Assembly (NCBI GenBank): GCA_030696455.1
Contig: JAUYSH010000051.1
Location: 1 to 39,195 of the forward strand
Source: Elusimicrobiota bacterium
GTDB lineage: Bacteria; Elusimicrobiota; Elusimicrobia; UBA1565; UBA9628
Length of the DNA stretch: 39,195 nt
Direction of reading: 5' to 3'
Part shown: in pieces, positions 2,770-39,195 of the stretch
Position numbering within the stretch: position 1 is the stretch's first letter
Layout of the letters: each line of letters opens with the position of its first letter
Position numbers and translations under genes: made by a program
The notes under the pieces: generated by a model
The model's database searches: none
What the model saw: only the letters and a program-made list of their open reading frames with translations
What the model was told of the DNA's origin: nothing

Positions 2770-2852
2770 GGATTCCTCTGGGGTGGTCGATAGGCGGGAC
2801 GGGATTCCCGTATGGTAGCGGCTTCCCCACGGCTGGGCCATGCTATTTTATG

Positions 2853-2871
2853 GCTCGATTAAGAATCGAGC
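2853..2871 (-). other. 8-bp inverted repeat at end of Mor-like gene
   Basis: GCTCGATT and AATCGAGC flank a 3-nt loop and span the stop codon of the Mor-like gene, 84 bp before hxsD. No T-run follows, so it is not a classical intrinsic terminator. It could be an operator or a processing hairpin. No convincing -35/-10 pair is visible in the 89 bp before hxsD. Confidence 0.35.
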
Positions 2872-3173: not shown

Positions 3174-3199
3174 TGCAACGCAACGGCCAGGCCCGAAAA

Positions 3200-23942: not shown

Positions 23943-23955
23943 CCGGAGCATTTTG

Positions 23956-23972
23956 TTGGTCAATTCGTTGCA
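23956..23972 (+). promoter_or_regulatory. Candidate sigma-54 promoter of Rrf2–porin–napA operon
   Basis: TTGGTCAATTCGTTGCA has GG/GC spacing of 10. The predicted start is near 23983, only about 6 nt before the ATG at 23989, so the message would be nearly leaderless. The downstream ATAACGGACAA box (23978-23988) is identical to that before tatA. Confidence 0.5.
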
Positions 23973-23988
23973 GGACAATAACGGACAA

Positions 23989-24435
23989 ATGAATCCGGAT
24001 TCCCGCCTTCTGCAGCTGCCCCAATCCTCGCGCTACGCGGTCACCGCCGCGGTCTACCTCGCGTTGCGAACGGACGACGCCTATCACATGGTCGGCAACA
24101 TCGCCCGGGACAACGGGCTGTCTCCCAGCTACCTCTCCAAGATCCTCCAGCGACTCGCGCATCATGACATCCTCGACAGCCGCCGAGGAGCCAAAGGCGG
24201 CTACCGCCTGAGACGGCCCGCCGCCGAGATCACTTTATCCGACGTCGTCTCCGCCTCCCGCCGCGCGGACACCGATCCGATGCCGTGCATGGTCGAGGCC
24301 CGGGACTGTGACTGCTCCTCGCCCTGCGCCATGCACGATCTGGTCGCGCAGACCGAGGAAGCGATGCTGAAAAAGCTGAACAAGACCACCCTCGCCGATT
24401 TCAAACACACCCGACGCTCCCAGGAGAGATCATGA
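23989..24435 (+). CDS. Rrf2-family transcriptional regulator
   Basis: A 148-residue Rrf2 protein. The winged helix spans about 7-85 (SSRYAVTAAVYLAL; IARDNGLSPSYLSKILQRLAHHDILDSRRGAKGGYRL). The sensor loop has cysteines in CMVEARDCDCSSPCAMHDL (about 105-122), the position where NsrR, IscR and RsrR bind an iron-sulfur cluster; four cysteines lie here instead of the usual three. It could therefore sense nitric oxide, oxygen or cluster status, fitting control of an anaerobic nitrate-type respiration operon. The ATG at 23989 lies directly after the shared box; an upstream TTG would fall inside the proposed promoter. The gene is ATGA-coupled to the porin gene. Confidence 0.9.
   Translation: MNPDSRLLQLPQSSRYAVTAAVYLALRTDDAYHMVGNIARDNGLSPSYLSKILQRLAHHDILDSRRGAKGGYRLRRPAAEITLSDVVSASRRADTDPMPCMVEARDCDCSSPCAMHDLVAQTEEAMLKKLNKTTLADFKHTRRSQERS
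23991..24002. promoter_or_regulatory. 12-bp palindrome over the Rrf2 start codon
   Basis: GAATCCGGATTC is a perfect palindrome beginning at the last base of the Rrf2 ATG. A related GTCCGG follows the shared box before tatA. It is a plausible autoregulatory site for the Rrf2 protein. Confidence 0.4.
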
Positions 24436-25685: not shown

Positions 25686-25698
25686 TTTCGGGGGATTC

Positions 25699-28470
25699 AT
25701 GGACAAGAATAACGAAGAGCAGTCGGATCTGACGCGCAGGGACTTCCTCAAGGCGAGCGGCGCCGCCGCCGCGGCGCTGGGCGTCTCCTCGCTTCCCGGC
25801 GAACTGGCCACCGCAGCCGACGTCACCAAGGTCATGGGCGGCAAGTTCCGCCGCGAGCTCCAGTCCCAGTGCCCCTACTGCGGCGTCGGCTGCGGGACCT
25901 TGATCCAGGTCGAGGGCGACACCATCGTGGGCATGGTCCCCGACAAGCTCCACCCCACGAACAAGGGCGTCATGTGCATCAAGGGCCTCAACGCGCAGGA
26001 ACCTATCTATCGAGATCGCCTCGAGAAGTGCCTCATCCGCAAGGACATGAGCGATCCCCTGCGCGGCCATGTCTCCGAGAGCAAGGGCCGCTTCGACGAG
26101 TCGGTCTACCGGGAGGCGTCCTACGAGGAAGCCGAGCACGTCGTCGCCGAGCGCATCGCCGAGCTCGTCAAGAAGGAAGGCGGCGGCTCGGTCGGCCTCA
26201 ACGGCTCCGGCCAGCTGACCATGGAGGCGCAGTGGATCGAGAACGTCCTGATGAAGGGCGTGCTCAGCTCCAACGCCATCGAGGCCAACGCCCGCATGTG
26301 CATGACCTCCGCGGCCACGGGCTACTTCGCCTCCTACGGCTCCGACACGCCGCCCACCTCCTACGACGACATCGAGCTCGCGGACTTCATCTCCTTCTGG
26401 GGCCATAACGCCCGCGAGGCGCATCCGATCCTGTTCTGGCGCGTGGCCGACCACAAGCGCGAGAAGGGGACTCCCACCCTCGTCTCCGATCCCCGCCGCA
26501 CCGGCACCGTGCAGGGCCTCGAGGAGATCGATCCGAGGAACTCCTTCCACTTCCAGACCATTAACGGCGACATCTCCTATCTCAACGCGATCGCCTACGT
26601 GATCATCACCAAGTACCCCGAGGCCGTCATGCCCGAGGCCTGGCTCGAGAAGAACGTCGACGGCTGGCGCGAGTACATCGAGGGCGTCAAAGCGCGCTAC
26701 TCCCCGAAGCAGGTCGTCGCCGAGCTCAAGCCCCTCGACCGGGGCCGGATCACGGTCGAGCAGATCGAGAACATCGGCAAGCTGTGGGCCGAGGCCTCCA
26801 TCAAGGGCCGCAAGCGCGGAAAGGGCGGCGTGCTCACCTTCTGGGGCATCGGCTACAACCAGATGATCCACGGCCAGCACAACACCATCTCGATCATCAA
26901 CCTCCACCTGCTCACCGGCAACCTCGGACGGCCCGGCTGCGGCTCGCATTCCCAGACCGGGCAGCCCAATGCGATGAGCGAGCGCCTCATGGGCGGCCTC
27001 ACGGGACGCCTGCCGTTCAACAAGGGTCTCGAGAACGACGCTTGGCGCACCCACATCAACAAGGCCTGGCGCCTGCCCGAGGGCCGGCTCGACCTCACCT
27101 TCAAGCAGAAGCCCACCATGGTCATCCCGATGATGGAGCGGGCGCTCAAGGGCGACCTTAAGGCGATGTTCTGGATGTACACCACCCACGTGCACATGCC
27201 CGATCTGAACACCTTGGTGCGGCCGGCTCTCACCAAGATGTTCGTCGTCGTGCAGGATATCTACCGCCACGCGCCGAACCTGCTGTACGCCGACGTGGTG
27301 TTCCCCGCGATCACCTGGGGAGAGTGGACGGGAGGCACCTACATCCAGAGCGAGCGGCGCCTGTACGTCTGCGACGGCGTCTCGGTGGGCAAGAACGAGA
27401 AGGGACAGCCCCTGCTCGAGGCGCTGCCGGACATGGACCTGGCCATCGACAAGTCCAAGCTCATCGCCCGCATGCTCGGCCTCGACGCGGACAAGATCTT
27501 CCCTTACAAGAAGACCCTCAAGAACAAGTACGGCCAGAAGTTCTACGACCCCGAGGACGTGTTCCGGGACATCATCAAGGCCTCCAAGGGCTCCGACGCC
27601 GACCTCACCGGCATGCTCGAGGTCGAGAAGCGCGATGGCGTCGGGCTCTACGAGCAGATGCGCCGCCTGCGCGGCATCCAGTGGCCGGCGCCGACCTACG
27701 CCATCGCCAAGAAGGGCGGCACGGCGCGCCGCTACCTGGGCCAAGAAGGCTGGGCGGGACAGCCGTACGGCGCCTTCGCCCATCCCAACGGCAAGGCGCG
27801 CCTGAAGCTGTGCGAGCAGAACTACTCGACGCTCAAGGAGACCTGCGGCAAGATGATGACCTTCGGCGAATCGGTCGGCCTCAGGAAGCGCGAGGGCGCG
27901 TCGAACAAGGAGATGCTCGAGGCGGCCGAGAAGCAGCCGTTCATGATGGACAACATGGACCTGCTCATCAAGGCCCGCGACAACGCTCTGCCGCCGGAGA
28001 TCCCCGACCTCGACTTCTACGACGATGCGAGCAAGACGCTCGAGGACGCCGCCAAGGAGAACAAGTACCCGTTCTGGCTCGGCCTGGGCATCGTCTACGA
28101 GCACTTCCACTCCGCCAAGACCATCCAGGGCCCGACGACGCTCAAGCTCGTGCCCGAGCAGTATGTCGAGGTCAGCGCCGAGGACGCCAAGCGCTGGAAC
28201 CTCGAGGACGGCGAAAAGGTCCGCATCGTCACGCGCCGCGGCTCCTACGAGGGCCGCGTCTCGGTCGGCACGGACTCGATGGTCAAGCCGGCCCGCTCGC
28301 AGGTGCCCGCCGGCTACATGTTCAGCCCGTGGAACCTCTCGGTGGCCGACAGCTCCGACCCCGCGAAGAACCGCTGGCTGGTCAACGCGACGAGCCACCG
28401 CGCCTGGGACCCCGTCTCCGGCCAGGCCGACTACAAGAAGCTGGCGATGCGCCTGGAGAGGATCGCGTAA
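25699..28470 (+). CDS. napA: NapA-family periplasmic molybdenum reductase (variant)
   Basis: A 923-residue molybdopterin oxidoreductase. It has a Tat signal TRRDFLKASGAAAAALG (residues 12-28), a [4Fe-4S] motif CPYCGVGCG with a fourth Cys (C58, C61, C65, C93), K95, and a likely Mo-ligand C201 in NARMCMTSAATGYF. TSYDDIELADFISFWGHNAREAHPILFWRV, NLHLLTGNLGRPGCGSHSQTGQPNA and TGRLPFNKG all follow the NapA plan, and the C-terminus matches NapA (NRWLVNATSHRAWDPVSGQADYKKLA). It is about 90 residues longer than usual. The NapA 'EKEGAYGNAERR' region reads GEWTGGTYIQSERR. Nitrate reductase is the best guess, but the changes near the substrate funnel leave the substrate open. NapB, NapC and NapD genes are absent here. 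Confidence 0.87.
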   Translation: MDKNNEEQSDLTRRDFLKASGAAAAALGVSSLPGELATAADVTKVMGGKFRRELQSQCPYCGVGCGTLIQVEGDTIVGMVPDKLHPTNKGVMCIKGLNAQEPIYRDRLEKCLIRKDMSDPLRGHVSESKGRFDESVYREASYEEAEHVVAERIAELVKKEGGGSVGLNGSGQLTMEAQWIENVLMKGVLSSNAIEANARMCMTSAATGYFASYGSDTPPTSYDDIELADFISFWGHNAREAHPILFWRVADHKREKGTPTLVSDPRRTGTVQGLEEIDPRNSFHFQTINGDISYLNAIAYVIITKYPEAVMPEAWLEKNVDGWREYIEGVKARYSPKQVVAELKPLDRGRITVEQIENIGKLWAEASIKGRKRGKGGVLTFWGIGYNQMIHGQHNTISIINLHLLTGNLGRPGCGSHSQTGQPNAMSERLMGGLTGRLPFNKGLENDAWRTHINKAWRLPEGRLDLTFKQKPTMVIPMMERALKGDLKAMFWMYTTHVHMPDLNTLVRPALTKMFVVVQDIYRHAPNLLYADVVFPAITWGEWTGGTYIQSERRLYVCDGVSVGKNEKGQPLLEALPDMDLAIDKSKLIARMLGLDADKIFPYKKTLKNKYGQKFYDPEDVFRDIIKASKGSDADLTGMLEVEKRDGVGLYEQMRRLRGIQWPAPTYAIAKKGGTARRYLGQEGWAGQPYGAFAHPNGKARLKLCEQNYSTLKETCGKMMTFGESVGLRKREGASNKEMLEAAEKQPFMMDNMDLLIKARDNALPPEIPDLDFYDDASKTLEDAAKENKYPFWLGLGIVYEHFHSAKTIQGPTTLKLVPEQYVEVSAEDAKRWNLEDGEKVRIVTRRGSYEGRVSVGTDSMVKPARSQVPAGYMFSPWNLSVADSSDPAKNRWLVNATSHRAWDPVSGQADYKKLAMRLERIA

Positions 28471-28471
28471 A

Positions 28472-28504
28472 GGCCGACGACTATCCTCAAGGATAGTCGC
28501 GGCC
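28472..28504 (+). other. Strong intercistronic hairpin between napA and first napG
   Basis: A 10-bp perfect dyad (CGACTATCCT / AGGATAGTCG) is extended by GGCCG/CGGCC with one bulged A, giving roughly a 14-bp stem with a TCAA loop. It fills most of the 44-bp gap and ends 10 nt before the next ATG, with no T-run. It is likely an mRNA-stabilising or processing structure, or an attenuator that makes NapA more abundant than the downstream proteins. Confidence 0.6.
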
Positions 28505-28514
28505 GGACTCGAAG

Positions 28515-29129
28515 ATGAAAGAAGTCAGCCGGCGGGAGTTCTTGAAGAACGCGGCGGCGACCGGGGCGGCCTTGGCCGCCTCGGCCGTCCTGCTGCGTCC
28601 CGCCGCGGCCGAGACGGGCGTCATCCGCCCCCCCGGCGCCGTGGAGCAGGGCGAGTTCCTGTCGCGCTGCATCCGCTGCGGGCGCTGCGGGGACGCCTGC
28701 CCGAGCCAGGCCATCATGATGTTCACCGAGGCCAACGGCGAGAAGTTCTCGCTCAAGCCCGGGCCGGGGGACGACGGCACGCCGATCGTCTTCCCCCGCC
28801 AGCAGGCCTGCAATCTGTGCCAGAAGGTGAGCGGGGAGTACCTGCGCTGCACCGAGGTCTGCCCGACCGGGGCGCTGACCAAGCTCCTGAAGACCGAGGC
28901 GGCGGCGAAGGTCAAGATGGGGGTGGCCAAGCTCGACAAAAACCTGTGCTACTCGTACAACAGCAAGACCTGCGGGGTCTGCATCCGCGCCTGCCCGATC
29001 CCGGGGGCGATGAAGACCGGCCCCGGCGAGAGGCCGATCTTCGACGAGAGCTTCTGCGTCGGCTGCGGCCTGTGCGAGCGCTCCTGCATCCGCTACCCGC
29101 AGGCCATCATGGTGGTCGCCCGTGTCTGA
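28515..29129 (+). CDS. napG: NapG-type Tat-exported ferredoxin (copy 1)
   Basis: A 204-residue protein with a Tat signal (SRREFLKNAAATGAALAASAVLL) and four [4Fe-4S] motifs: CIRCGRCGDACP; CNLCQK…LRCTEVCP; CYSY…CGVCIRACP; CVGCGLCERSC. This matches NapG, the periplasmic polyferredoxin that passes electrons from the quinol-oxidising NapH to the reductase. 'GVIRPPGAV-Q-EFL-RCIRCG' after the signal is the usual lead-in. It overlaps the next gene by 8 bp. A second NapG follows, which is unusual. Confidence 0.88.
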   Translation: MKEVSRREFLKNAAATGAALAASAVLLRPAAAETGVIRPPGAVEQGEFLSRCIRCGRCGDACPSQAIMMFTEANGEKFSLKPGPGDDGTPIVFPRQQACNLCQKVSGEYLRCTEVCPTGALTKLLKTEAAAKVKMGVAKLDKNLCYSYNSKTCGVCIRACPIPGAMKTGPGERPIFDESFCVGCGLCERSCIRYPQAIMVVARV

Positions 29130-29745
29130 ACGGGGTCTGACCCGCCGGGAGGCGCTCATCCGTTCCGCGGCCGCCGCGGCGGGCGGCGGCCTCCTGCTCG
29201 GCCTGCTGCGCTGCGGCGAGAGCGCCCCGGCGTCGAACGTCCCGCCGGACCTGGTCCGCCGCGGCCTGCTGCGCCCGCCCGGGGCCGTCGCGGAAAGCGA
29301 GTTCCTGGCCCGCTGCATCCGCTGCCAGCGCTGCGCCGAGGTGTGCGAGACCGACGCGATATTGATCGCGCCGCGCGCGGCGGGGCGCACGGCCCACACG
29401 CCCTATATCGTCCCGGAGACCGCGGCCTGCGACCTGTGCCTGGCCTGCGGCAAGGCCTGCCCCACTGGAGCGCTGGAACCGCTTCGATCTATGGCCGACG
29501 CCCGCATGGGCGTGGCCGTCGTCGACAAGCGCCTGTGCGTCAGCCACAACGGCACCGGGGTGTGCGGCGCCTGCTTCACCATCTGCCCATTGAAGGGCAA
29601 GGCGATCACGCAGGGCAAGCACAACGCGCCCACGGTCCACGAGAAGGCCTGCGCCGGCTGCGGCCTGTGCGAGGAAGCCTGCATCGTCGACGACCCGATG
29701 GACGGCCGCGCGATCCGCGTGCGCAGCGAGAGGGCCTGGTCATGA
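29122..29745 (+). CDS. NapG-type ferredoxin (copy 2), possible lipoprotein
   Basis: A 207-residue paralogue of the preceding protein. The twin-arginine signal LTRREALIRSAAAAAGGGLLLGLLRC ends in a cysteine that may be lipid-anchored, although Arg at -1 is not canonical. Four clusters follow: CIRCQRCAEVC; CDLCLACGKACP; CVSH…CGACFTICP; CAGCGLCEEAC. The RPPGAVAESEFLARC lead-in is kept. The start is GTG at 29122, inside the previous gene's last codons. Tandem NapG copies could form an electron wire between NapH and NapA or serve two partners. It is ATGA-coupled to the NapH gene. Confidence 0.85.
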   Translation: MSERGLTRREALIRSAAAAAGGGLLLGLLRCGESAPASNVPPDLVRRGLLRPPGAVAESEFLARCIRCQRCAEVCETDAILIAPRAAGRTAHTPYIVPETAACDLCLACGKACPTGALEPLRSMADARMGVAVVDKRLCVSHNGTGVCGACFTICPLKGKAITQGKHNAPTVHEKACAGCGLCEEACIVDDPMDGRAIRVRSERAWS

Positions 29746-31301
29746 TGCGCCTCATCTGGCCGCGGCGGCGCGCGGTGCAGGTCCTGGTGCTGGCGTCGAT
29801 CATCCTCTTTCCCTTCATCGCGCGCTACAGCCATTACCTGTGGGCGCGGCAGGAGACGAAGCTGCTCGAACGCTGGGGCAACAGCCCCGCCGGCCTGCTC
29901 CTGCGCGGCACCGACGCGCTGATGCGCGTGGGCCTGCCGATGGAGGAGTCGGGGGTCGTCGGGCGTCGCCCGCGCAAGGCCCTGCTCGTCCGCGCGGATC
30001 ATTTCGTCGGCTCGCTCCCCTGGTCGGCGCGGCTGTTCGGGCTCTCGCTCACCGACCTGCTCGCCTCGGCGGAGAGCGCCTTCGCCACGCGCAGCCTCGT
30101 CTCGGTGCTCGCCGCCGGCGCGATCATCCCTCTCCTCGCGACCTTGCTGCTCGGGCGCGTGTACTGCGGCTGGATCTGCCCCATCGGCCTGCTCATGCCG
30201 CTGATCCGCCGCCTGCGCTCGGCGCTCGCCTTCCTCGAGCTTCCCGTCCACGACGTCCGCTTCTGGAAGGGCAACAAGTACGCCTTGCTCGGCGCCGCCG
30301 CTTTGATCGGGCTGATCGGCGGCCTGCCGATCCTGCATTACATCTATCCGCCGGCGATCCTGAGCCGCGAGGCCCATTCCTTCGCCACCATCCTCTTCGA
30401 CCGCGCCGAATCCGGCCTCTTCGGCTTCCCCTGGGGCTTCTTCTCCGGCGGGATGATCTTCCTCGCCGTCGTCGCCCTCGTCGAGGTGGCCGTAGCGCCC
30501 GGCTTCTGGTGCGCCACGCTGTGCCCCGGCGGCGCTCTCTACAGCGCGCTCTCGCGCTGGCGCCTCCTGCGCGTGAAGCGGACGAAGTCCGCGTGCATCG
30601 ACTGCGTGCTCTGCGACAAGGCCTGCCCGATGCAGCTTCAGCCGATGACGGACAAGACCGGCGGCGAGTGCGACTCCTGCGGCGTCTGCGTCGATGTCTG
30701 CCCGACGAAGGCCCTCGCCTTCAAATTCTCCCGCACCGACGCCGCCTTGATGGCACTCCTGTGCCTGGGCCTCGCCGCGCCCGCCCGCGCGCATCACATC
30801 ATCGGCCTCCCGCACTACGCCTACGACGAGTCCTTTCCGCAGGCGCCGGTCCTTCGCCTGCGCGAGAAGCTCGGCCCCTACGAGGTCATCCTGACCGGAT
30901 ATCCAGGAAATCCGAAGCCCGGAGAAAAATCCGAGCTGCATGTCTACGTCAACGACCCCGCGACGAACACCCCTTACGAGCAGCAGGTCCTCCTCGAGGC
31001 CTACCGCATGAAGCCCTTCGGCTTCCAGGAGAAGATCGCGGACGCGCGCGAGGGCCTCGTGGAGATGGGCCTGCACAAGTTCCACGTCGTCTATCCCACC
31101 GTCGCGAACTACGAGGTCGTCCTGGTCCTGCCCGAGCTCGACGGGAGCTCGACCCTGCGCTTCCCGCTCGTCGTCGGCGAGCCGGGCTCGCCGTGGCGGG
31201 ACGTCGCCCTGTTCGGCGGCGGGTTCCTCGCCTTGCTCGTCGTGGTGCGCGCGGTGAAGATCAAGCGCGCGCGCGCGGCGTTGAAGGAGAAGGCCGCGTG
31301 A
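29742..31301 (+). CDS. napH: NapH-type membrane ferredoxin with fused periplasmic domain
   Basis: A 519-residue protein. The N-terminal ~330 residues are NapH-like: a lead TM helix (11-27), a long periplasmic insert, then helices around GRVYCGWICPIG (C142, C146) and FWCATLCPGG (C257, C261), followed by two cytoplasmic [4Fe-4S] motifs (CIDCVLCDKACP and CDSCGVCVDVCP). An unusual C-terminal extension starts with a hydrophobic helix ending in ARAHHIIGLPHYAYDE (about 332-365) and continues as a beta-rich domain (YEVILTGYPGNPKPGEKSELHVYVND) with a final TM helix near 490-505. NapH oxidises quinol with NapG. The extension looks like an FixH/CopC-type immunoglobulin fold and may bind a partner or a metal; that is inference. 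Confidence 0.85.
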   Translation: MMRLIWPRRRAVQVLVLASIILFPFIARYSHYLWARQETKLLERWGNSPAGLLLRGTDALMRVGLPMEESGVVGRRPRKALLVRADHFVGSLPWSARLFGLSLTDLLASAESAFATRSLVSVLAAGAIIPLLATLLLGRVYCGWICPIGLLMPLIRRLRSALAFLELPVHDVRFWKGNKYALLGAAALIGLIGGLPILHYIYPPAILSREAHSFATILFDRAESGLFGFPWGFFSGGMIFLAVVALVEVAVAPGFWCATLCPGGALYSALSRWRLLRVKRTKSACIDCVLCDKACPMQLQPMTDKTGGECDSCGVCVDVCPTKALAFKFSRTDAALMALLCLGLAAPARAHHIIGLPHYAYDESFPQAPVLRLREKLGPYEVILTGYPGNPKPGEKSELHVYVNDPATNTPYEQQVLLEAYRMKPFGFQEKIADAREGLVEMGLHKFHVVYPTVANYEVVLVLPELDGSSTLRFPLVVGEPGSPWRDVALFGGGFLALLVVVRAVKIKRARAALKEKAA

Positions 31302-33184
31302 ACCCGCTCCTCTCCCCCTCCCGACCCGCCGCGCCGAAAAGCGCCGTCAAGAACGGCTGGGCCGGGCGCCTCGCGCTGAGCCTGCCTTACGCGCTCGGGC
31401 TCCTCGTCCTGGGCCTCATCGCCGTGGACCTCGGCCGGACCGGCTCGACCGTCTACGTGGACGCAAACGAGATGGCCCGCACCGCGGCGGAGGCGACTCA
31501 TCCCCCGGCTTCCAACGTTGAAAGTCCGGGGATAAGCGGAGGAGCAGTCGATCCGGTGTGCGGCATGACGGTGCGCCCGTCGAGCGCCGAGAAAGCCGTC
31601 TTTGAAGGCCGGACGTTCCATTTCTGCAGCTCCTACTGCCGGACCGCGTTCCTCGAGAAGCCCGCCGAGTTCGCTCAGGCGGCGCACCTGCCGCGCGCGA
31701 GCCACACCATGCGCGGCCTGCCCACGCGGATGTATCAGTGGGCGCTCGTTCTGATCCTTATCCTTTCCTTCGGCGTCATCGAGCTGCTCGGCGGCGACGG
31801 GAAAGGCCCGGGGCCGATGTCCGCGCGCTGGGACCTGACGGCGTGGGCTCCTCTGCGCCGGCTCCTGGAGTCGAACCTCTTTCCCTTCATACCGCGCGTC
31901 TTCACCTCGGTCCTCTTCCTCGTGGTCATCGCCGCCGGGTTGTTCGGGAACCAGAACCCGGCGATGAACATCGCCCCGCTGCTCACCTGGACGGTGTGGT
32001 GGACCGGCCTGATCTTCGCGGTGCTCTACCTCGGCAAGGGCTGGTGCACGGTGTGCCCGTGGGACGCGCTGGCCGGCTGGGCGGCGCGCTTCAACTCGAG
32101 CCTGGACCTCCCCTGGCCCAAGGCTCTGAGGAGCATCTGGCCCGCCGTGGGGCTCTTCCTCGCCTTGACCTGGGTCGAGCTCGGCATGGGCATCACCCTG
32201 ATCCCCCGCGCCACCGCGTGGGTCGCGCTCGCCTTGTTGGGAATGGCCGTGACCTGCGCCTTCCTGTTCGAGCGCAAGTCCTTCTGCCGCTACGCCTGCC
32301 TCGTCGGCCGCGTCTCCGGGCTTTACGCGCTGTTCTCGAGCGTGGAGATCCGCGCGGCGAAGGAAAACTGCTCCGGCTGCGGCACGCTCGACTGCTGGAA
32401 GGGCAACGCGCTCGGCGACGGCTGCCCGACCTTCGAGTATCCCCGGGCGATGACGCTCAACACCTATTGCACGATGTGCGCGGAGTGCTTCAAGACCTGC
32501 CCGTCCGGAAGCATGTCCCTGAACCTGAGGCCGTGGGCGGCGGATCTGGTCGTCGAAGGCAAGCCCCGCGCTGATGAAGCGGCCCTGGCCTTGATCCTCC
32601 TCTCGATGACGGCCTTCCACGGCCTGACCATGACGCCGTCCTGGGTGGCACTCCTCGAGGAGACGAGGGCCGCGACCGGGCTGTCCTTCCTGAGCGCCTT
32701 CACGGGGCTGATGGCGGCGTTCCTCGCCCTGCCCGTGCTCGTCTACGCGGCGCTGGCGGCCGCCTCGGCGGCCTGGGCCCGCGTCGGCTTCCGGGACGTG
32801 GCCCTGCGCTTCGCCTACGCGCTGCTGCCCATCGCGCTTTTCTACCACCTCGCGCACAACGCCGAGCACTTCCTGATGGAGGGCCCCAGGCTGCTGGCGC
32901 TGGTCTCCGATCCGTTCGGCTGGGGCTGGAACTTGTTCGGCACCGCGCGGCGCGCCATGCCGCCCTTGGTCACCCTCGAGGGGCTGTGGCGCATCCAGGT
33001 CCTTTTCGTGCTCGTCGGCCATCTCTACAGCCTCTGGATCACGGCGCGCACCGCCCGCCGCCTCGCCGCGGGGCGCGGCGCGCTCGCGGTCCAAATACCC
33101 ATGCTCGTCGCGATGGTCGTCTTCAGCTGGGCCAGCCTTTGGCTGCTCAAGCAGCCGATGGACATGCGCCTCTCGGGAATGTGA
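31298..33184 (+). CDS. YHS-domain/NapH-like polyferredoxin membrane protein
   Basis: A 628-residue protein. One TM helix (about 25-44) precedes a YHS domain (residues 84-127: VDPVCGM … GRTFHFCSSYCRTAFLEKPAEF; C88, C110, C114) that normally binds a metal ion. Then come several TM helices with GKGWCTVCPW (C250, C253) and FCRYACLVGRVSG. Two ferredoxin motifs follow (CSGCGTLDCWKG…CPTFE; CTMCAECFKTCPSG), and four to five further helices with histidines in YHLAHNAEHFL, possible heme or quinone ligands. It looks like a second NapH/CcoG-type quinol-linked protein. The start is GTG overlapping the previous stop, with AAGGAG 8 nt before. Codons just before the YHS domain (31495-31555) are A/T-ended, suggesting the domain was added. 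Confidence 0.8.
   Translation: MNPLLSPSRPAAPKSAVKNGWAGRLALSLPYALGLLVLGLIAVDLGRTGSTVYVDANEMARTAAEATHPPASNVESPGISGGAVDPVCGMTVRPSSAEKAVFEGRTFHFCSSYCRTAFLEKPAEFAQAAHLPRASHTMRGLPTRMYQWALVLILILSFGVIELLGGDGKGPGPMSARWDLTAWAPLRRLLESNLFPFIPRVFTSVLFLVVIAAGLFGNQNPAMNIAPLLTWTVWWTGLIFAVLYLGKGWCTVCPWDALAGWAARFNSSLDLPWPKALRSIWPAVGLFLALTWVELGMGITLIPRATAWVALALLGMAVTCAFLFERKSFCRYACLVGRVSGLYALFSSVEIRAAKENCSGCGTLDCWKGNALGDGCPTFEYPRAMTLNTYCTMCAECFKTCPSGSMSLNLRPWAADLVVEGKPRADEAALALILLSMTAFHGLTMTPSWVALLEETRAATGLSFLSAFTGLMAAFLALPVLVYAALAAASAAWARVGFRDVALRFAYALLPIALFYHLAHNAEHFLMEGPRLLALVSDPFGWGWNLFGTARRAMPPLVTLEGLWRIQVLFVLVGHLYSLWITARTARRLAAGRGALAVQIPMLVAMVVFSWASLWLLKQPMDMRLSGM
31503..31531. repeat. Imperfect palindrome at the YHS-domain junction
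   Basis: CCCCGG and CCGGGG enclose near-complementary CTTCCAACG/GTTGAAAG with one mismatch and one bulge, inside the linker that joins the first membrane helix to the YHS domain. The local codons are atypical, so this may mark a past insertion point. Confidence 0.4.
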
Positions 33185-33804
33185 TGAGCGACCTGAACGA
33201 CGCCTGCTCGCGACGCGACTTCTTCTCGGCCATGTTCAAGGAGCTGGCGGGAGCGGCAGGCACCGTCGCCTCCTCCTTCGGCGACAAGCTGGCCCTCGTC
33301 GAGGAGACGGGCGGCAAAAAGATCGCGCCGCCCGCGAAGGCGTTCGTGCGCCCCCCGGGCGCCGTTTCCGAGAGTTTATTTCTAGACCTCTGCACGAAGT
33401 GCGACGACTGCGTCAAGGCGTGCCCCGAGTGGGTCGTGCGCAAGACGGGACCGGAGTTCGGCGAGCGGCTGGAAGGGTACCCGATGCTTCTGCCCGCGCA
33501 AAACCCTTGCGTCTTCTGCACGGGCCTTCCGTGCATCACGGCCTGCAAGACCGGCGCGCTCGTCCCTCCCGCGGCCGGCGCGCCCGCGCGCATCGGCCTG
33601 GCCGTCGTGGATAACGCGCGCTGCTACATGGGGCAGGGCCAGCCCTGCGACTACTGCGTGAAGGATTGCCCCGTGAAGCCCAAGGCCATCTCCGTGACCG
33701 CGCGCGGCCTGTCCGCCGGCGTGAACGCCGGCCTGTGCACCGGCTGCGGCGAGTGCGCCCAGATCTGTCCCGCCAACGCGATCTCAATCGAGGCCCTGCG
33801 ATGA
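33184..33804 (+). CDS. NapF-like cytoplasmic ferredoxin
   Basis: A 206-residue protein with four cysteine clusters (CTKCDDCVKACP; CVFC…CITACKTG; CYMGQGQPCDYCVKDCP; CTGCGECAQICP), as in NapF/NapG. It begins ACSRRDFFSAMFKELAG; the RR is followed by no strongly hydrophobic stretch, so it is probably not exported, matching NapF, which keeps a vestigial twin-arginine start and is thought to help mature NapA's cluster in the cytoplasm. The 'FVRPPGAVSESLFLDLCTKC' lead-in is shared with the two NapG proteins upstream. TGATG links it to the previous gene, and its stop overlaps the cytochrome gene. Confidence 0.8.
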   Translation: MSDLNDACSRRDFFSAMFKELAGAAGTVASSFGDKLALVEETGGKKIAPPAKAFVRPPGAVSESLFLDLCTKCDDCVKACPEWVVRKTGPEFGERLEGYPMLLPAQNPCVFCTGLPCITACKTGALVPPAAGAPARIGLAVVDNARCYMGQGQPCDYCVKDCPVKPKAISVTARGLSAGVNAGLCTGCGECAQICPANAISIEALR

Positions 33805-34871
33805 TCAAGCTCCTGCTCCTGTCGGCCCTATTCTCCCACGCGGCCGAGGCTCCCACTTCGCTTCAGAAAGACGCCGCCCTGTTCCAGGCGAAGTGCGCCA
33901 AATGCCACACGATCGGACGCGGCGACCGCGTCGGCCCCGACCTCAAGGGCTTGTCCGAGCGGCGCGAGAAGGCGTGGATCATCGGCTTCATCACTCGGAC
34001 GGGCTTCTATCTCGACAACGACGCCGAGGCCAAGAAGCTGCTGGCGAAGTTCAACGGCGTGCGCATGGAAGACACGGGCCTGAGCGAGGCCCAGGCGGCG
34101 GCGCTCCTGAGCTACCTCGACGCGGCGTCCAAGGGCCCGGTGGGCCCCGAGGAGGCGCCGGAGCCCGAGGCCGAGGATCCCGCCGCCAAGGTGCGCATGC
34201 CCGCGGAAGGACGGGGCGCCTGGCTGCCGGGCATCGCGGCCGGTCTCGTCTGCCTGGCCCTCGCCGTCGGCGTCTGGCAGCTGGGCTTCCCGCTTTCCGC
34301 CGCGGTCCTGCTCGTCCTGGCCGCCGGCGCGGGCTACTGGAGCCTCGGCGGCCGGCGCCATCACCGCCTCCTGGGCGACCAGCAGGGCTACGCTCCCGCT
34401 CAGCCCATCGACTACTCCCACGCGACCCACGCCGGCAAGCTCAAGATCGACTGCCTGTACTGCCACTACGGCGCCGCGCGCAGCGACGTCGCCGGGGTCC
34501 CTCCCGCCTCGGTGTGCATGGGCTGCCACAACGCGGTGCGCAAGACGGCGGGCGCGACGGAGCCGTCGGCGGAGATCGCCAAGCTCGTCGCCGCGTGGGA
34601 CACGCGCCTGAGCAGCGCGCCGGCGGCGATCGAGTGGAACCGGATCCACGACCTGCCCGACTTCGTCCACTTCTCCCATCGAGCCCACGTGGCCAACGAT
34701 ATCCGCTGCCAGGAATGCCACGGGCCGGTCCAGGACATGGCGCGCGTGCGACAGGCCTCCTCGCTGTCGATGGGCTGGTGCGTCAACTGCCACCGCCAGG
34801 AGAAGTCCGTCGCGCCTTCGCATTGGAAACGCACCGGGGGGCCGCTCGACTGCGCGGCCTGCCACTGGTGA
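33801..34871 (+). CDS. actA: Fused monoheme + pentaheme cytochrome c (ActE/ActA-like, ACIII)
   Basis: A 356-residue cytochrome with six CxxCH heme sites. After a signal peptide, residues 20-115 are a class-I-like monoheme domain (C32-AK-CH36, GDRVGPDLKGL, and a Met in FNGVRMED) resembling ActE. A Pro/Glu linker leads to two hydrophobic helices (about 141-160, 162-180). Then comes a five-heme region matching ActA of alternative complex III: PIDYSHATHAGKLKIDCLYCH, GVPPASVCMGCH, FVHFSHRAHVANDIRCQECH, SLSMGWCVNCH, LDCAACH. ActA normally stands alone, so the fusion is unusual. It starts the act gene run and is ATGA-coupled to the NapF-like gene, tying ACIII directly to the nap cluster. Confidence 0.86.
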   Translation: MIKLLLLSALFSHAAEAPTSLQKDAALFQAKCAKCHTIGRGDRVGPDLKGLSERREKAWIIGFITRTGFYLDNDAEAKKLLAKFNGVRMEDTGLSEAQAAALLSYLDAASKGPVGPEEAPEPEAEDPAAKVRMPAEGRGAWLPGIAAGLVCLALAVGVWQLGFPLSAAVLLVLAAGAGYWSLGGRRHHRLLGDQQGYAPAQPIDYSHATHAGKLKIDCLYCHYGAARSDVAGVPPASVCMGCHNAVRKTAGATEPSAEIAKLVAAWDTRLSSAPAAIEWNRIHDLPDFVHFSHRAHVANDIRCQECHGPVQDMARVRQASSLSMGWCVNCHRQEKSVAPSHWKRTGGPLDCAACHW

Positions 34872-34882
34872 GGAACGATATC

Positions 34883-37792
34883 ATGAATGAAGAAGAAGCC
34901 AGGACGCAGGCCGCTGAAGACGCGAAGGACGGCATCAAGCGCCGCGATTTTCTGCAGCTGATGGCGGGAAGCTTCGCGGCGCTGGCGGCCGGCGGCTGCC
35001 AGTTCAAGAAGCCCGCGGAGAAGATCGTGCCCGCGCTGGTCGCCCCCGAGGAAGGGGTGCCCGGCCAGGCGGCCTGGTACGCGACGACGTGCGGGGCCTG
35101 CCCCGCCGCGTGCGGCGCGCTGGCCAAGGTCCGCGACGGCCGCCCCATCAAGCTCGAGGGCAACCCCGAGCATCCCGTCTCCCGCGGCGGCCTGTGCGCG
35201 CGCGGCCAGGGCTCCTTGCTCGACCTCTACGACTCCCAGCGCTACGCCTCGCCGCGCCTCAGCGGCGCCGCGACCGATTGGGACACCGCCGACCTCGAGG
35301 TCATCCGCGCGCTCGAGCGCGCCCGCGCGTCGGGCAAGGCCGTCCGCCTGCTGAGCCCGGCATGGGCGAGCCCCTCCGCGCGCGCCGAGCTCGCGCGACT
35401 GCGCGCGCGCTTCCCGTCCCTGCGCCACGTCGTCTACGACGAGCCCTCCCTGCAGGCGTCGGTCTCCGCCCACCGCCTCACGCACGGCCGCGCCGCGCTG
35501 CCCTCCTATCATCTCGAGAAGGCCAAGGCGATCGTCTCCTTCGACGCCGATTTCCTCGGCACCTGGGGCTCGCCGGTCCAGTTCACGAAAGACTGGGCCG
35601 CGCGCCGCAAGCCCGACGCCAAGCTCGACCTCATGTCGTGGCACGCCCAGTTCGAGGCGCGCATGTCGCCGACGGGGGCCAACGCCGACCTGCGCGTGCC
35701 CGTGAAGCCCTCCGAGCGCTACGGGACCATCGTCGAGCTCGGCCGCCTGGTCGCCCAGAAAACAGGCTGGAGCGGAGCGGTTCCTCCGTCCGCGCCGACT
35801 TCGGTGTCGCGCTCGATCCTTCTTCAGACCGCGGCGGCGCTCGTCGCCGAGCGGCGCCGAGCCGTCGTGCTTTGCGGAGCGACGGACGTCGCCGCCCAGG
35901 CCGCCGCCAATTGGATCAATCACATGCTCGGCGCCTACGAGTCCATCGCCGATCTGGAAAGGCCCGCCGCCTTCGCGTCGGGCGAGGCTGGCGCTTTCGA
36001 CGCCCTGCTCGCGGAGCTGGACCGGGGCGAGGTGGCCGTGCTGATCGTGCGCGGCTGCAATCCCGCCTCGGACCATCCGCGGGCCGCGGACTTCCGCAAG
36101 GCCGCCGTGAAGGCCGGGCTCGTCGTCAGCCTCGCCGGACGGCCCGATGAGACCGCGAAGCTGGCGCGGGTCGTCCTCCCGGAGCATCATTACCTCGAGT
36201 CCTGGGCCGACCACGATGCCTACGGCGGGGTGCTCAGCCTGACCCAGCCTACGGTGTCGCCCCTGCGCGGCACGCGCGGCGCCCTCGAGACGCTCGCGCG
36301 CTGGGACGGACGCCGCGAGACGGACTATGAGCTTATCCGGAGCCATTGGCGCTCCACGGTCTTCCCTCGCCAGAAAAAGGCCCGTTCGTTCGAGACGTTC
36401 TGGGAAGATGCCGTTCGCCTCGGCGCGCTCACGATCGGCGGCGGCGCCGGCAAGGCCGCCTTCCAGCCCTCGGCGCTGTCGACGCTGAAGGCTCCTTTGC
36501 CGTCCGGGTCCGGCTTCGAATTCGTCGCCTATCAGGGCGTCGCCCTCGGCGACGGCCGCCAGGCCAACAACCCCTGGCTCCAGGAGTTGCCCGACCCGGT
36601 CACGAAGACGACCTGGGGCAACTTCGCCTCGTTCTCCCCGGCGGACGCAAAATCCCTCGGCCTCGTCGAAGGCCGCGTCGTCAAGCTCGACGCCGGGGGC
36701 GTCTCGGTCGAGCTCCCCGCCCACGTCCAGCCCGGGCAGGCCCCGGGCACCGTCGTCGCCGCCCTCGGCTACGGCCGCTCCGGGATCGGGGTCATGGCGG
36801 GCAACCTGCCCGTGGTGAAGATGCTCCCGGTCGGCTTCGAGCCCGCGAGCGGGGCCGACGTCATGCCGCTCTTCCGCGCCCCCGCCGTGACCGTGACGCC
36901 GCTGCCGCGCTTCGAGCGGCTGGCGAAGACCCAGACCTACGACCACCTCGTCGATCCGCTGATGGGCGAGCGCCGCGATCACGTGCGCGAGACCGTCCTC
37001 GCGGACTTCCTGCTGAACCCGCGCGCCGGCAATCCCGAGGAGGTCAAGGCCCACAGCCTCTGGAAGGAGCACGAGTACACGGGGCCCAAATGGGGCATGG
37101 CCATCGACCTCAACTCCTGCACCGGCTGCTCGGCGTGCGTGCTGTCCTGCAACCTCGAGAACAACGTTCCGGTCGTCGGCAAGTCCGAGATCGCCAAGAG
37201 CCGCGACATGCACTGGCTGCGCCTGGACCGCTACTATTCAGGTCCGCCGGACTCGGCGGACGGCAGCCCCGACGTCTCCTTCCAGCCGATGCTGTGCCAG
37301 CACTGCGGCAACGCCCCGTGCGAGACGGTCTGCCCGGTGCTCGCCACGGTCCACTCGACCGAGGGCCTCAACATGCAGGTGTACAACCGCTGCGTGGGCA
37401 CCCGTTACTGCGCCAACAACTGCCCCTACAAGGTCCGGCGCTTCAACTGGTTCGACTACGCGCACGCGGACCTGAGCGCCAACCTGGCGCTCAACCCCGA
37501 CGTGACGGTCCGCTCGCGCGGGGTCATGGAGAAGTGCTCCTTCTGCGTGCAGCGCATCTACACCGCCAAGGCCGACGCCAAGGTGGAGGGGCGCGTCATG
37601 CGCGACGGCGACGTCAAGCCCGCCTGCGCGCAGAGCTGCCCCTCGGAGGCCATCGTCTTCGGCGACCTCAACGACCCGAAGAGCAAGGTCGCCAGGCTCG
37701 CCGAGAGCGGGCGCTCCTACCGCGTGCTGAGCGAGCTGGGCGTGCAGCCCTCGGTGCATTATCTGACGAAGGTCCGGAACAAGAGGGTTTAA
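34883..37792 (+). CDS. actB: Alternative complex III iron-sulfur subunit ActB
   Basis: A 969-residue fusion typical of ActB. A Tat/lipoprotein signal KRRDFLQLMAGSFAALAAGGC (RR 20-21, lipid Cys 39) precedes a molybdopterin-oxidoreductase-like half (to about 680), followed by a PsrB/HybA-type ferredoxin half with four clusters (CTGCSACVLSCNLEN; CQHCGNAPCETVCP; CVGTRYCANNCP; CSFCVQR…ACAQSCP). The first half is a scaffold without molybdenum in characterised ACIII. Here it still has CGACPAAC plus a later Cys (C70, C73, C77 and LCARGQ), so a cluster may be retained. No plausible Mo-ligand Cys motif like NARMC is seen. GAGG precedes the ATG. It forms the periplasmic arm that passes electrons from quinol oxidation to the hemes. 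Confidence 0.92.
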   Translation: MNEEEARTQAAEDAKDGIKRRDFLQLMAGSFAALAAGGCQFKKPAEKIVPALVAPEEGVPGQAAWYATTCGACPAACGALAKVRDGRPIKLEGNPEHPVSRGGLCARGQGSLLDLYDSQRYASPRLSGAATDWDTADLEVIRALERARASGKAVRLLSPAWASPSARAELARLRARFPSLRHVVYDEPSLQASVSAHRLTHGRAALPSYHLEKAKAIVSFDADFLGTWGSPVQFTKDWAARRKPDAKLDLMSWHAQFEARMSPTGANADLRVPVKPSERYGTIVELGRLVAQKTGWSGAVPPSAPTSVSRSILLQTAAALVAERRRAVVLCGATDVAAQAAANWINHMLGAYESIADLERPAAFASGEAGAFDALLAELDRGEVAVLIVRGCNPASDHPRAADFRKAAVKAGLVVSLAGRPDETAKLARVVLPEHHYLESWADHDAYGGVLSLTQPTVSPLRGTRGALETLARWDGRRETDYELIRSHWRSTVFPRQKKARSFETFWEDAVRLGALTIGGGAGKAAFQPSALSTLKAPLPSGSGFEFVAYQGVALGDGRQANNPWLQELPDPVTKTTWGNFASFSPADAKSLGLVEGRVVKLDAGGVSVELPAHVQPGQAPGTVVAALGYGRSGIGVMAGNLPVVKMLPVGFEPASGADVMPLFRAPAVTVTPLPRFERLAKTQTYDHLVDPLMGERRDHVRETVLADFLLNPRAGNPEEVKAHSLWKEHEYTGPKWGMAIDLNSCTGCSACVLSCNLENNVPVVGKSEIAKSRDMHWLRLDRYYSGPPDSADGSPDVSFQPMLCQHCGNAPCETVCPVLATVHSTEGLNMQVYNRCVGTRYCANNCPYKVRRFNWFDYAHADLSANLALNPDVTVRSRGVMEKCSFCVQRIYTAKADAKVEGRVMRDGDVKPACAQSCPSEAIVFGDLNDPKSKVARLAESGRSYRVLSELGVQPSVHYLTKVRNKRV

Positions 37793-37795
37793 TAT

Positions 37796-39184
37796 ATGTC
37801 CACCAGCCACGTCTCTCCGCTCCGCGAGCCTCTCGTCGACGGCGTCAAGGACCTCGGGCAGATCACCCGCGACGTCTGCGACCCGCTCGACGCCGCCCCC
37901 ACCACCGCCTGGTACGCGGCCTTCGCCGCCGCGCTGGCCGCGCTGTCCTACGGCGCCGTGATGGTGATCCATCAGGTCTGGACCGGCATCGGGACCTGGG
38001 GCCTCAACAAGACCGTCGGCTGGTCCTGGGACATCACGAACTTCGTGTTCTGGGTCGGCATCGGCCACGCGGGGACCTTGATCTCGGCCATCCTGTTCCT
38101 GTTCCGCCAGAAGTGGCGGACCTCGATCAACCGCTCGGCCGAGGCGATGACCATCTTCGCCGTGATGTGCGCCGGCATCTTCCCCCTCATCCACATGGGA
38201 CGGCCGTGGCTCGCGTACTGGGTCATGCCCTACCCCAACCCGATGGGACCGCTGTGGGTGAACTTCCGCTCACCGCTGCTGTGGGACGTGTTCGCCATCA
38301 GCACCTACTTCATCATCTCCGCGACGTTCTGGTTCGTCGGGCTGATCCCCGACCTGGCGACCTTGCGCGACCGCCTGCCCGAGGGCTGGCGCAAGAAGGC
38401 CTTCGGCTTCGCCAGCCTTGGCTGGTCGGGCTCGCACCGGACCTGGCAGCACTACGAGATGGTCTATCTGCTGCTCGCGGGGCTGGCCACGCCGCTGGTG
38501 TTCTCGGTGCACACCATCGTCTCCTTCGACTTCGCGACCTCCGTGATCCCGGGCTGGCATGCGACCATATTCCCGCCCTACTTCGTCTGCGGCGCGATCT
38601 TCTCCGGCTTCGCGATGGTGCTGACCTTGATGATCATCGCCCGCAAGGTCATGAACTTCGAGGGCTACATCACCTTGCGCCACATCGACGCCATCTGCAA
38701 GGTCATCCTGCTGACCTCGATGATCGTCGGCCTCGCGTACTCGACGGAGCTGATCATCGCCTACTACAGCGCGAACCATTACGAACGGTTCGCGTTCATG
38801 AACCGCATCCAGGGCCCGTTCGCGGGCTTCTACTGGATGATGGTGTTCTGCAACGTCCTCGTGCCGCAGGCGCTGTGGTTCGAGCGGATCCGCCGCGACG
38901 TCCGGGTGCTCTTCCTCATCTCGATCCTCATCAACGTGGGCATGTGGCTCGAGCGGTTCGTGATCATCACGATCTCGCTGCACCGGGACTATCTCCCCTC
39001 GAGCTGGACGGACTATTCCCCGACCTACGTCGAGATCGGCACCTACATCGGGAGCTTCGGCCTGTTCTTCACCTGCTTCCTGCTGTTCTGCCGCCTGCTG
39101 CCGATGATCGCCATCAGCGAGGTCAAGGGCGTGCTGAGCTACGCCCGCAACGATGAGCGCAAGGAGAGCCGTCATGGCCACTAG
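37796..39184 (+). CDS. actC: Alternative complex III membrane subunit ActC (NrfD family)
   Basis: A 462-residue polytopic protein with about ten TM helices. It contains NrfD/PsrC-type features: FVFWVGIGHAGTLISAILFLFRQKWR with the conserved His, PLIHMGRPWLAYWVMPYPNPMGPLWVNFRSPLLWD, MVYLLLAGLATPLVFSVHTIVSFDFATSVIPGWHATIFPPYFVCGAIFSG, and STELIIAYYSANHYE. These match ActC, the quinol-binding subunit of ACIII. The gene begins 3 bp after actB and overlaps the next start. Confidence 0.94.
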   Translation: MSTSHVSPLREPLVDGVKDLGQITRDVCDPLDAAPTTAWYAAFAAALAALSYGAVMVIHQVWTGIGTWGLNKTVGWSWDITNFVFWVGIGHAGTLISAILFLFRQKWRTSINRSAEAMTIFAVMCAGIFPLIHMGRPWLAYWVMPYPNPMGPLWVNFRSPLLWDVFAISTYFIISATFWFVGLIPDLATLRDRLPEGWRKKAFGFASLGWSGSHRTWQHYEMVYLLLAGLATPLVFSVHTIVSFDFATSVIPGWHATIFPPYFVCGAIFSGFAMVLTLMIIARKVMNFEGYITLRHIDAICKVILLTSMIVGLAYSTELIIAYYSANHYERFAFMNRIQGPFAGFYWMMVFCNVLVPQALWFERIRRDVRVLFLISILINVGMWLERFVIITISLHRDYLPSSWTDYSPTYVEIGTYIGSFGLFFTCFLLFCRLLPMIAISEVKGVLSYARNDERKESRHGH

Positions 39185-39195
39185 GACCTTCGTCG
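39174..39195 (+). CDS. Start of next gene, probably actD (cut by window edge)
   Basis: An ATG at 39174 with AAGGAG 7 nt upstream overlaps the end of actC and reads MATRTFV before the sequence ends. The standard order actA-B-C-D and this position make ActD, a small membrane-anchored ACIII subunit, the expected product, but seven residues cannot prove it. Confidence 0.5.

Follow-up and report, generated by a model that had tools for sequence, protein, structure and literature searches.

By the usual view, periplasmic nitrate reduction conserves no energy and alternative complex III (ACIII) is an aerobic complex. Here we describe a locus in a 39,195-nucleotide contig of an Elusimicrobiota bacterium (GenBank assembly GCA_030696455.1, contig JAUYSH010000051.1; the whole contig is called the window below) in which genes for a nitrate-reductase-like molybdoenzyme, NapA1, run directly into the act genes of ACIII. 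Among the closest described systems, cited here and below for the passages of each paper that deal with them, are Campylobacter jejuni and Wolinella, in which a complex III (QcrABC) feeds the periplasmic nitrate reductase Nap electrogenically, with NapG/NapH present and NapC absent (Garg et al. 2018, PMC6195509). Deletion of Qcr (cytochrome bc) leaves Campylobacter unable to grow on nitrate when oxygen is limited, and NapG/NapH may have a part in maturing NapA there (PMC6195509). Caldithrix abyssi has Nap without NapB or NapC, with NapG/NapH and Rieske/cytochrome b genes in the cluster, and transfer from ACIII to a multiheme protein has been proposed for its nitrite reductase; Desulfovibrio NapA, as cited in the same paper, works without NapB (PMC5317091). 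In Oslofjord Planctomycetota, ACIII-like genes lie beside nitrate reductase genes, and a respiratory role has been suggested for them by Suarez et al. (2023, PMC10732223). The original prediction for this locus, made from its letters alone, knew of no described pathway with such a layout, a view that goes too far given ACIII-like clusters beside Nar and Nap/Nxr (PMC10732223), bc-driven Nap in Campylobacter (PMC6195509) and Nap with Rieske/b in Caldithrix (PMC5317091).

The nap–act operon of the window, together with relatives in which the same heme chain stands beside a different quinol-oxidizing complex, suggests an undescribed energy-conserving respiratory assembly in uncultured groundwater bacteria. 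Judging from gene content and order, we put the probability at roughly 0.58 that the locus encodes a single assembly in which electrons would pass from quinol through complex III and a hexaheme chain to NapA1, reducing nitrate electrogenically, and in which ACIII would once have replaced a Rieske/cytochrome b complex, in a single event. If this is true, two unrelated complex IIIs would be interchangeable parts and ACIII would serve anaerobic respiration.

Conservation of the nap–act gene run

The window is the complete contig C143 of a 4.01-Mb bin (147 contigs, 97.9% complete, 2.5% contaminated). From position 23953 to the contig end it holds one same-strand run encoding an Rrf2 regulator, a porin, NapA1, two NapG-like proteins, a NapH-like protein, a NapH/NosR-like protein, a third NapG-like protein, ActA, ActB, ActC and the start of ActD (Table 1). 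The junctions from Rrf2 to ActC measure −4, 13, 44, −8, −4, −4, −1, −4, 11 and 3 bases and that of ActC with ActD −11, with nap and act meeting in a 4-base overlap. A scan of 23500–39195 returned no promoter-like site (1.0 expected by shuffling) and nine terminator-like sites (6.3 expected by shuffling); those on the plus strand lie solely at 23900 and, inside a gene, at 30419, and none was found at the nap/act junction. The separating terminator that the original prediction named as a sign against it was thus sought at the junction without being found, and its single run with gaps of at most 44 bp holds at −8 to +44 bases, with the labels NapA, NapF and ActE/A in need of correction. By homology and gene order, the ActA, ActB and ActC homologues are an alternative complex III.

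The same nap-then-act order is present in the window and in all eight act-type relatives with enough contig (handles G for genomes and L for loci: G196, G198 (to ActB), G200, G185, G186, G189, L065 and L069), on contigs that include ones of 288,826 and 396,151 bases. L065 and L069 come from metagenome-assembled genomes (MAGs) labelled Planctomycetota, and in G182, G184, G197, G207 and L064 the contig stops before act. Because the order recurs in eight relatives, the adjacency is not a matter of chance, and the proposal that ACIII and reductase form one conserved run stands. A second NapG was not found in the G185, G189 and L069 clusters. Across the 340 genomes of the Elusimicrobiota phylum, NapA1 occurs in 11 (E at most 1e-100).

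In G189, about 7 kb is inserted after NapA1. This insert (L029 7269–14046, between NapA1 and NapG) is a type II dimethyl sulfoxide (DMSO)-reductase-family operon encoding an alpha subunit of 1150 residues, a beta subunit, a chaperone and a heme-b gamma subunit; its proteins are NarG/NxrA relatives, every subunit scoring below its curated cut-off.

The later act genes of the bin lie on a second contig, C52, which starts with the only ActD in the bin. C52 opens with the end of actC, followed in order by ActD, a protein of 785 residues that has seven CXXCH motifs, ActF, a YyaL-like protein, a canonical NapA and NapB. Window positions 39117–39195 and C52 positions 1–79, both at the actC/actD junction, are identical at 67 of 79 positions, with 12 mismatches; C52 may derive from a sister strain, the bin may hold two strains, or strain variation may have broken the assembly. 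Because the window is a whole contig and its overlap with C52 is imperfect, continuity from actC to actD in the window strain is unproven. ActD, ActE and ActF are contiguous with ActC in G196, G200, G185, G186, G189, L065 and L069, and in G196, a member of the same genus, the genes from nap through ActF and YyaL share one contig. Neither G196 nor G200 showed a second NapA/NapB in the corresponding position behind act. The terminal oxidase that the original prediction wanted looked for behind actD–F did not appear either: no COX1 match was found after ActF in the 5.2 to 24 kb of C52, G196, G200, G184, G185, G186 and G189.

A shared hexaheme unit and the NapA1 lineage

The seven-motif protein of C52 is ActE. 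Seven CXXCH motifs, that is, six extra mono-heme domains, are also found in eight other ActE genes of NapA1 genomes and in three more, and a mono-heme ActE is encoded at 22 other act loci across the phylum. From residue 211 (residue 69–194 in about half of the loci) to about residue 783, the C52 protein aligns to the cytochrome encoded beside NapA1. In 192 of 234 comparisons across 39 loci, many of them related and hence not independent, a heme domain was most similar to the domain at the collinear position, where about 33 such cases would be expected by chance. In a tree of 60 hexaheme units, rooted at midpoint as was the NapA1 tree, all 21 ActE tails fall into one clade (support 98/94), whose sister is a stand-alone hexaheme protein beside NapA1 in L098 (100/100). 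Within the tail clade, NapA1-bearing lineages branch first, and eight of nine ActE genes from genomes without NapA1 form one nested clade. The simplest reading of this tree is that the partner cytochrome of NapA1 was fused to ActE and NapA1 was then lost in one Elusimicrobiota branch.

The six-heme unit at the end of ActE is found in other loci immediately upstream of NapA1, and this lends independent support to an electron path from ACIII to NapA1. The original prediction had assigned the donor role to a six-heme 'ActE/A' protein standing in for NapB. We rejected this replacement: both the monoheme and the pentaheme part of that protein match Flavobacterium johnsoniae ActA (6BTM_A), which makes it an ordinary ActA, and the true ActE lies on C52. 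On the alignments above, the electron wire is likely to be the seven-heme ActE rather than ActA. The broader proposal of ACIII as intermediary to the reductase thus finds partial support, with a different donor, in keeping with the position of the tail unit elsewhere and with the missing COX1 after act.

What follows act also differs between the two forms of ActE. COX1 lies within about 2.3 kb behind seven of the 22 mono-heme loci, and was not found behind any of the 14 seven-heme loci that extend 4.8 kb or more beyond ActF (four more have less or end before ActF). The genomes of L071, L098, L068 and L070, whose NapA1 loci are of the Rieske/b or hexaheme-only type, hold five separate ACIII loci, all with mono-heme ActE; COX1 follows three of the five, and the L098 stretch ends soon after ActF.

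The wider set of NapA1 loci came from a genome-wide scan with two peptide patterns, which returned 58 loci and may have missed other relatives. NapA1 is encoded in 56 of them, one at 61% identity and the rest at 65–93%; the other two, L114 and L115, were rejected as NapA1 (28–33% identical) and are excluded from the counts below. The bins of the 56 NapA1 loci are labelled Planctomycetota (the majority), Elusimicrobiota, Wallbacteria, Latescibacterota, Verrucomicrobia, Hydrogenedentota and Deltaproteobacteria, with some unlabelled. Outside act-type loci, a multiheme cytochrome gene lies directly upstream of NapA1. We read 43 such genes: 35 have ten CXXCH motifs, four have six and four are cut short with fewer; two of the six-motif genes (L074 and L091, labelled 'hexaheme' in the tail tree) are truncated by the contig start and may be decaheme. 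In these loci the hexaheme unit is usually the tail of the decaheme protein, whose gene is preceded by ones for a GltD-like protein, a Rieske protein and cytochrome b, an arrangement confirmed for L110 by family models.

At the 56 loci the two complexes exclude one another. Cytochrome b lies upstream in 34 (31 also with Rieske, the remaining three having short upstream stretches) and act downstream in six, with no locus having both Rieske/b and act. Nine show only the hexaheme unit (seven with less than 5 kb upstream) and seven show neither type, six of these having short flanks and the seventh, L100 in G189, having act further on. Of the 47 loci that have 1.2 kb or more of sequence downstream, 46 carry a NapG-like gene behind NapA1, loci without ACIII included. 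The NapA1 tree has 52 rows, the window and 51 of the 56 loci (the partial L097, L099, L107, L108 and L113 were omitted), and in it act-type NapA1 forms one 13-row clade (100/100), ten rows being labelled ACIII and three unseen. For eight of the ten, L100 included, act is on the same contig; for L058 (G197) and L064 it is on other contigs. Since three rows of the clade are unseen, counting label changes on the tree gives four, not one. By analogy, the loci with Rieske/b, hexaheme unit and NapA1 look like a genetically fixed form of the Campylobacter cytochrome bc route, of which the window clade would be the ACIII version.

NapA1 itself is, by sequence comparison, a separate and deep lineage, and there is a real chance that it is a distinct enzyme class. 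It forms its own clade (100/100) on a long stem when placed in a tree of 25 molybdoenzymes. The window protein has a twin-arginine translocation (Tat) signal. Four [4Fe-4S] cysteines, Cys201-Met202, Lys95, Gln172 and Arg429 are invariant in 52 of 52 sequences; matched by alignment to Desulfovibrio desulfuricans NapA, Lys95, Gln172, Cys201-Met202 and Arg429 are what we take to be residues of the molybdenum site and pocket, as we do Met308. An AlphaFold model built from 42 sequences (predicted local distance difference test (pLDDT) 81, predicted template modelling score (pTM) 0.85) has D. desulfuricans NapA as its best solved match (Z 41.8, root-mean-square deviation 2.4 Å, 693 residues aligned), with formate dehydrogenases next at Z 38.6 and less and NapAB structures at 36.6 and less. 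We call NapA1 nitrate-reductase-like because of this best fold match and because the Fe–S cysteines and aligned molybdenum-site residues are invariant, and nitrate would be its likeliest substrate.

The lineage is unnamed and widespread in groundwater and marine Planctomycetota and Elusimicrobiota bins. Because NapA1 falls below the cut-offs of the NapA models, surveys of such genomes may count nitrate reduction too low or assign it wrongly.

Weighing the readings of the locus

From what the sequence gives, namely the genes, their order, the shared hexaheme unit and the mutual exclusion at the locus, we infer a fusion history, an electron direction, a substrate, a proton yield and a physical complex as follows. 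Menaquinol would be oxidized by ACIII, and electrons would pass from ActB to ActA, to ActE and along its six-heme tail to periplasmic NapA1, which would reduce nitrate to nitrite; periplasmic nitrate reduction would in this way become proton-motive. The NapG- and NapH-like proteins would mature NapA1 or let electrons in by a second route. ACIII would have taken over the role of the Rieske/b complex in the ancestor of the act-type clade, while the hexaheme wire was kept. In its fullest form, the proposal makes NapA1 an undescribed class of periplasmic molybdoenzyme, present in at least six phyla by bin label and hexaheme-wired to complex III, in which the whole quinol-oxidizing module was exchanged once (Rieske/b for ACIII) through fusion of the wire to ActE, yielding an electrogenic 'nitrate respirasome' with no need of NapB, NapC or NapD; we regard this fuller version as an even bet. 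The MoaA gene and Rrf2 regulator upstream, together with an NrfA on contig C74, count on the side of a single nitrate-respiring assembly.

Several observations weigh against that assembly. Those on the enzyme begin with its scores, 275.9 against a cut-off of 930.55 (TIGR01706) and 295.8 against 904 (NF010055), so the 'NapA-type' label of the original prediction holds in a broad sense only (296 bits); the formate dehydrogenase alpha model scores 275, close to these values. The position of Met308, a pocket residue of NapA, is Ile in all 52 sequences, several formate dehydrogenases outrank canonical NapAB structures as matches to the model, and the nearest known kin is unsure, the sister relation to NapA having support of 81/83 with a long-branch warning. 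Concerning the genes, ActD–F sit on a separate contig that disagrees with the window at 12 of the 79 overlapping bases, ActD is absent in five of 12 genomes behind other NapA1 loci, and L065 and L069 come from large bins (12.3 and 7.2 Mb), whose phylum label may be unsafe. The fusion-then-loss scenario depends on the midpoint root. Seven-heme ActE occurs in nine Elusimicrobiota genomes without NapA1 (two of them by matches of only 33–34%), and we rejected the notion that the hexaheme tail is specific to NapA1 genomes; in one of the nine, G205, the stretch begins at contig base 1 inside the H1 gene and NapA1 may lie in an assembly gap. An ActC match is present in 52 of the 340 phylum genomes, including all 11 with NapA1; the other 41 of the 52 lack NapA1, which makes ACIII the commoner of the two. 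Heme-copper oxidase subunit I is encoded elsewhere in all 11 NapA1 genomes, and COX1 lies on the nap–act contig itself in G185 (about 25 kb downstream of act) and G200 (about 9 kb upstream of NapA1); ACIII could therefore also serve oxygen respiration. All 11 have a cytochrome b homologue elsewhere as well, by which we rejected ACIII as the sole complex III. Finally, the bin also holds a canonical NapAB, and the NapGH-like proteins could feed NapA1 alone.

This last point leads to the alternative that survives best, that nap and act are merely co-regulated neighbours: ACIII would be a general complex III for cytochrome c-dependent oxidases, an NapG/NapH-like quinol dehydrogenase would feed NapA1, and the operon would co-express two low-oxygen modules. 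Heme-copper oxidases in every NapA1 genome, the near-constant NapG-like gene behind NapA1, found also without ACIII, and the nine genomes with seven-heme ActE and no NapA1 all fit it. It does not account for COX1 behind seven of 22 mono-heme but none of 14 seven-heme loci, for a hexaheme unit that is itself the gene adjoining NapA1 in other phyla, or for ACIII and Rieske/b never meeting at one NapA1 locus, and we consider it unlikely.

Slightly less probable again is a reversed wiring or another substrate, in which NapA1 would oxidize a high-potential donor (nitrite or another oxyanion) and deliver its electrons along the hexaheme chain to cytochromes or, uphill, to ACIII, or in which NapA1 would reduce an oxyanion other than nitrate. 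The separate, long-stemmed NapA1 lineage leaves room for this, as do the DMSO-reductase-family operon inside the act-type cluster of G189 and the NapA1-less seven-heme clusters: of seven inspected, three stand behind a one-heme protein of 449–470 residues and one behind a decaheme cytochrome and a barrel-like protein, labels assigned by inspection that possibly point to metal redox chemistry. The closest solved fold is nevertheless a nitrate reductase, and most residues aligned to its molybdenum site are retained; known nitrite oxidoreductases belong to the NarG-type family (PMC10732223), and menaquinol to nitrate is about 0.5 V downhill (PMC6195509). A mis-join of nap and act during metagenome assembly has next to no probability: the window is one of 147 contigs and overlaps another imperfectly at its end, but the junction is internal to the contig and the same order in eight other genomes, two of them Planctomycetota-labelled, refutes it.

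Gene inventory and comparison with known systems

Table 1 Features of the nap–act run in the window and of the act genes on C52 (bits, scores against family models; cut-offs are those of the models)
Feature	Position	Strand	Support
Rrf2-superfamily regulator (IscR/NsrR kin)	23953..24435	+	Rrf2 superfamily 103.7 bits (cut-off 73.3); 4-base overlap with porin start
Outer-membrane porin, alginate-export family	24432..25685	+	PF13372 238 bits; syntenic in most act-type relatives
NapA1, molybdopterin enzyme with Tat signal, divergent lineage of NapA/NasA group	25699..28470	+	
NapG-like Tat ferredoxin 1	28515..29129	+	NapG 116.5 bits (below cut-off 269)
NapG-like ferredoxin 2	29122..29745	+	NapG 127.2 bits (below cut-off 269)
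NapH-like membrane ferredoxin, extra C-terminal part	29742..31301	+	NapH 102.6 bits (below cut-off 213)
YHS-domain membrane protein, weakly NapH-like	31298..33184	+	YHS 44 bits; NapH 22.8 bits; NosR-like label by inspection
NapG-like ferredoxin 3	33184..33804	+	NapG 98 bits, NapF 67.8 bits, both below cut-off; 4-base overlap with actA
ActA, six CXXCH	33801..34871	+	6BTM_A, E 9.7e-46; monoheme and pentaheme parts align
ActB	34883..37792	+	6LOD_B 583 bits over residues 39–966
ActC	37796..39184	+	6BTM_C 628 bits over residues 1–451
actD, first 22 bases at contig end	39174..39195	+	
ActD	L008 (C52) 58–573		PF11821 165 bits
Seven-heme ActE	L008 (C52) 573–2927		first 200 residues match 6F0K_E, 5.7e-18
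ActF	L008 (C52) 2927–4087		by position; no family match

By its family matches the locus carries three NapG-like and two NapH-like Fe–S proteins. None reaches the curated cut-offs for a NapGH quinol dehydrogenase, the best scores being 127 of 269 for NapG and 102.6 of 213 for NapH. The protein first labelled NapF scores best as NapG (98 against 68 bits), and of the two NapH-like proteins first proposed one holds at 102.6 bits and the other is weak (22.8 bits) and has a YHS domain. The regulator falls below the family cut-offs for IscR (72.9 bits) and NsrR (52.9 bits). Directly upstream of it, at 21140–23942, are molybdenum cofactor genes resembling MoeA, MobA and MoaA (MoaA confirmed by NCBIfam, MoeA and MobA by inspection). 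Positions 41–20779 encode radical SAM, GMC oxidoreductase, FAD-dependent oxidoreductase, beta-eliminating lyase and hemerythrin-domain proteins, and the large open reading frame at 41–2515 gave no Pfam match at 1e-5.

The absence of NapB, NapC and NapD, as first proposed, is true of the window, and NapD was found in none of the 11 NapA1 genomes (the E. coli control was detected). NapC/NirT-family matches do occur elsewhere in the bin, and NapB is present on C52, which goes halfway towards the napB elsewhere that the original prediction named as refuting it: this NapB stands beside a second, canonical NapA. This pair (L008 5684–8625, after the act operon and the YyaL-like gene), whose NapA scores 1103.8 (TIGR01706) and 1130.7 bits (NF010055), led us to reject the notion of a genome without NapB. 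A NapB match was present in four of the 11 NapA1 genomes and not found in seven; the eight that are at least 90% complete divide four and four.

NrfA exceeds its cut-off in two of the 11 NapA1 genomes, this bin included. On C74 (28015–29841; L216, L002), an NrfA-type nitrite reductase (478 bits) lies beside a NapC/NirT-family match with one internal TGA stop; the bin may turn nitrite into ammonium, or the NrfA partner gene may be broken or mis-sequenced. Further along C52 (L008 12296–15264 and 16886–17440) are a DmsE/MtrA-family decaheme cytochrome, a 666-residue protein without a family match, which may be the outer-membrane barrel of that cytochrome, and a NapC/NrfH-family protein; the set may serve extracellular electron transfer.

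Other genes precede actA in the seven-heme clusters without NapA1 (seven of nine inspected). In L151, L153 and L156 (G229, G217 and G230) they encode a mono-heme cytochrome and a protein of 449–470 residues that has one CXXCH near its N terminus and, by inspection, resembles a barrel cytochrome. The G227 cluster stands behind a decaheme cytochrome and a large protein, barrel-like by inspection. A link of ACIII to metal oxidation or reduction in such clusters is possible. In L159–L163 (G214, G193, G194, G138 and G211), ACIII with mono-heme ActE is preceded by a gene with weak similarity (about 30%) to ActB, perhaps a Nar-type Fe–S subunit like that of the clusters which Suarez et al. describe from Planctomycetota.

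Among the titles, abstract openings and passages covered, we found no description of the NapA1 lineage, a multiheme ActE, a NapA–ACIII operon with such an ActE or the Rieske/b–ACIII swap, nor any report in a search on Elusimicrobia, ACIII and nitrate reductase, most subscription papers and preprints lying outside both searches. Among known systems, the monomeric D. desulfuricans NapA with NapM (2NAP, 2JIO) is the closest solved structure. It differs from NapA1 in sequence (about 30% identity) and in its donor, the tetraheme NapM. To our knowledge it has no link to ACIII. In Caldithrix, the mediator is likewise the tetraheme NapM, ACIII is encoded at another place together with an oxidase cassette, and a hexaheme fusion is not described in the passages on these genes (PMC5317091).

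In the Oslofjord Planctomycetota, the main case of ACIII-like genes by a nitrate reductase, with 13 instances, is Nar, and the cluster is read as a possible NrfAH-like nitrite reductase; two MAGs have an ACIII-like cluster, lacking three of the genes, beside Nap/Nxr (PMC10732223). The NapA1 lineage, seven-heme ActE and the Rieske/b swap are not described in the sections of that paper on these clusters, and the MAG that contains L065, labelled OFTM393, is not named in its main text (PMC10732223).

Compared with canonical ACIII (Rhodothermus 6F0K, Flavobacterium 6BTM), the ACIII of this locus has matches for ActA to ActE, with ActF assigned by position, and differs in an ActE with six additional heme domains and in its linkage to NapA1, not to an oxidase. 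The Campylobacter and Wolinella route uses canonical NapAB, and its Qcr genes are not described, in the passages on this route, as forming one operon with nap (PMC6195509). The NapA1 locus, by comparison, has no NapB or NapD in the cluster and another enzyme lineage, and would join its hexaheme chain to complex III by fusion, that complex being ACIII in the clade of the window.

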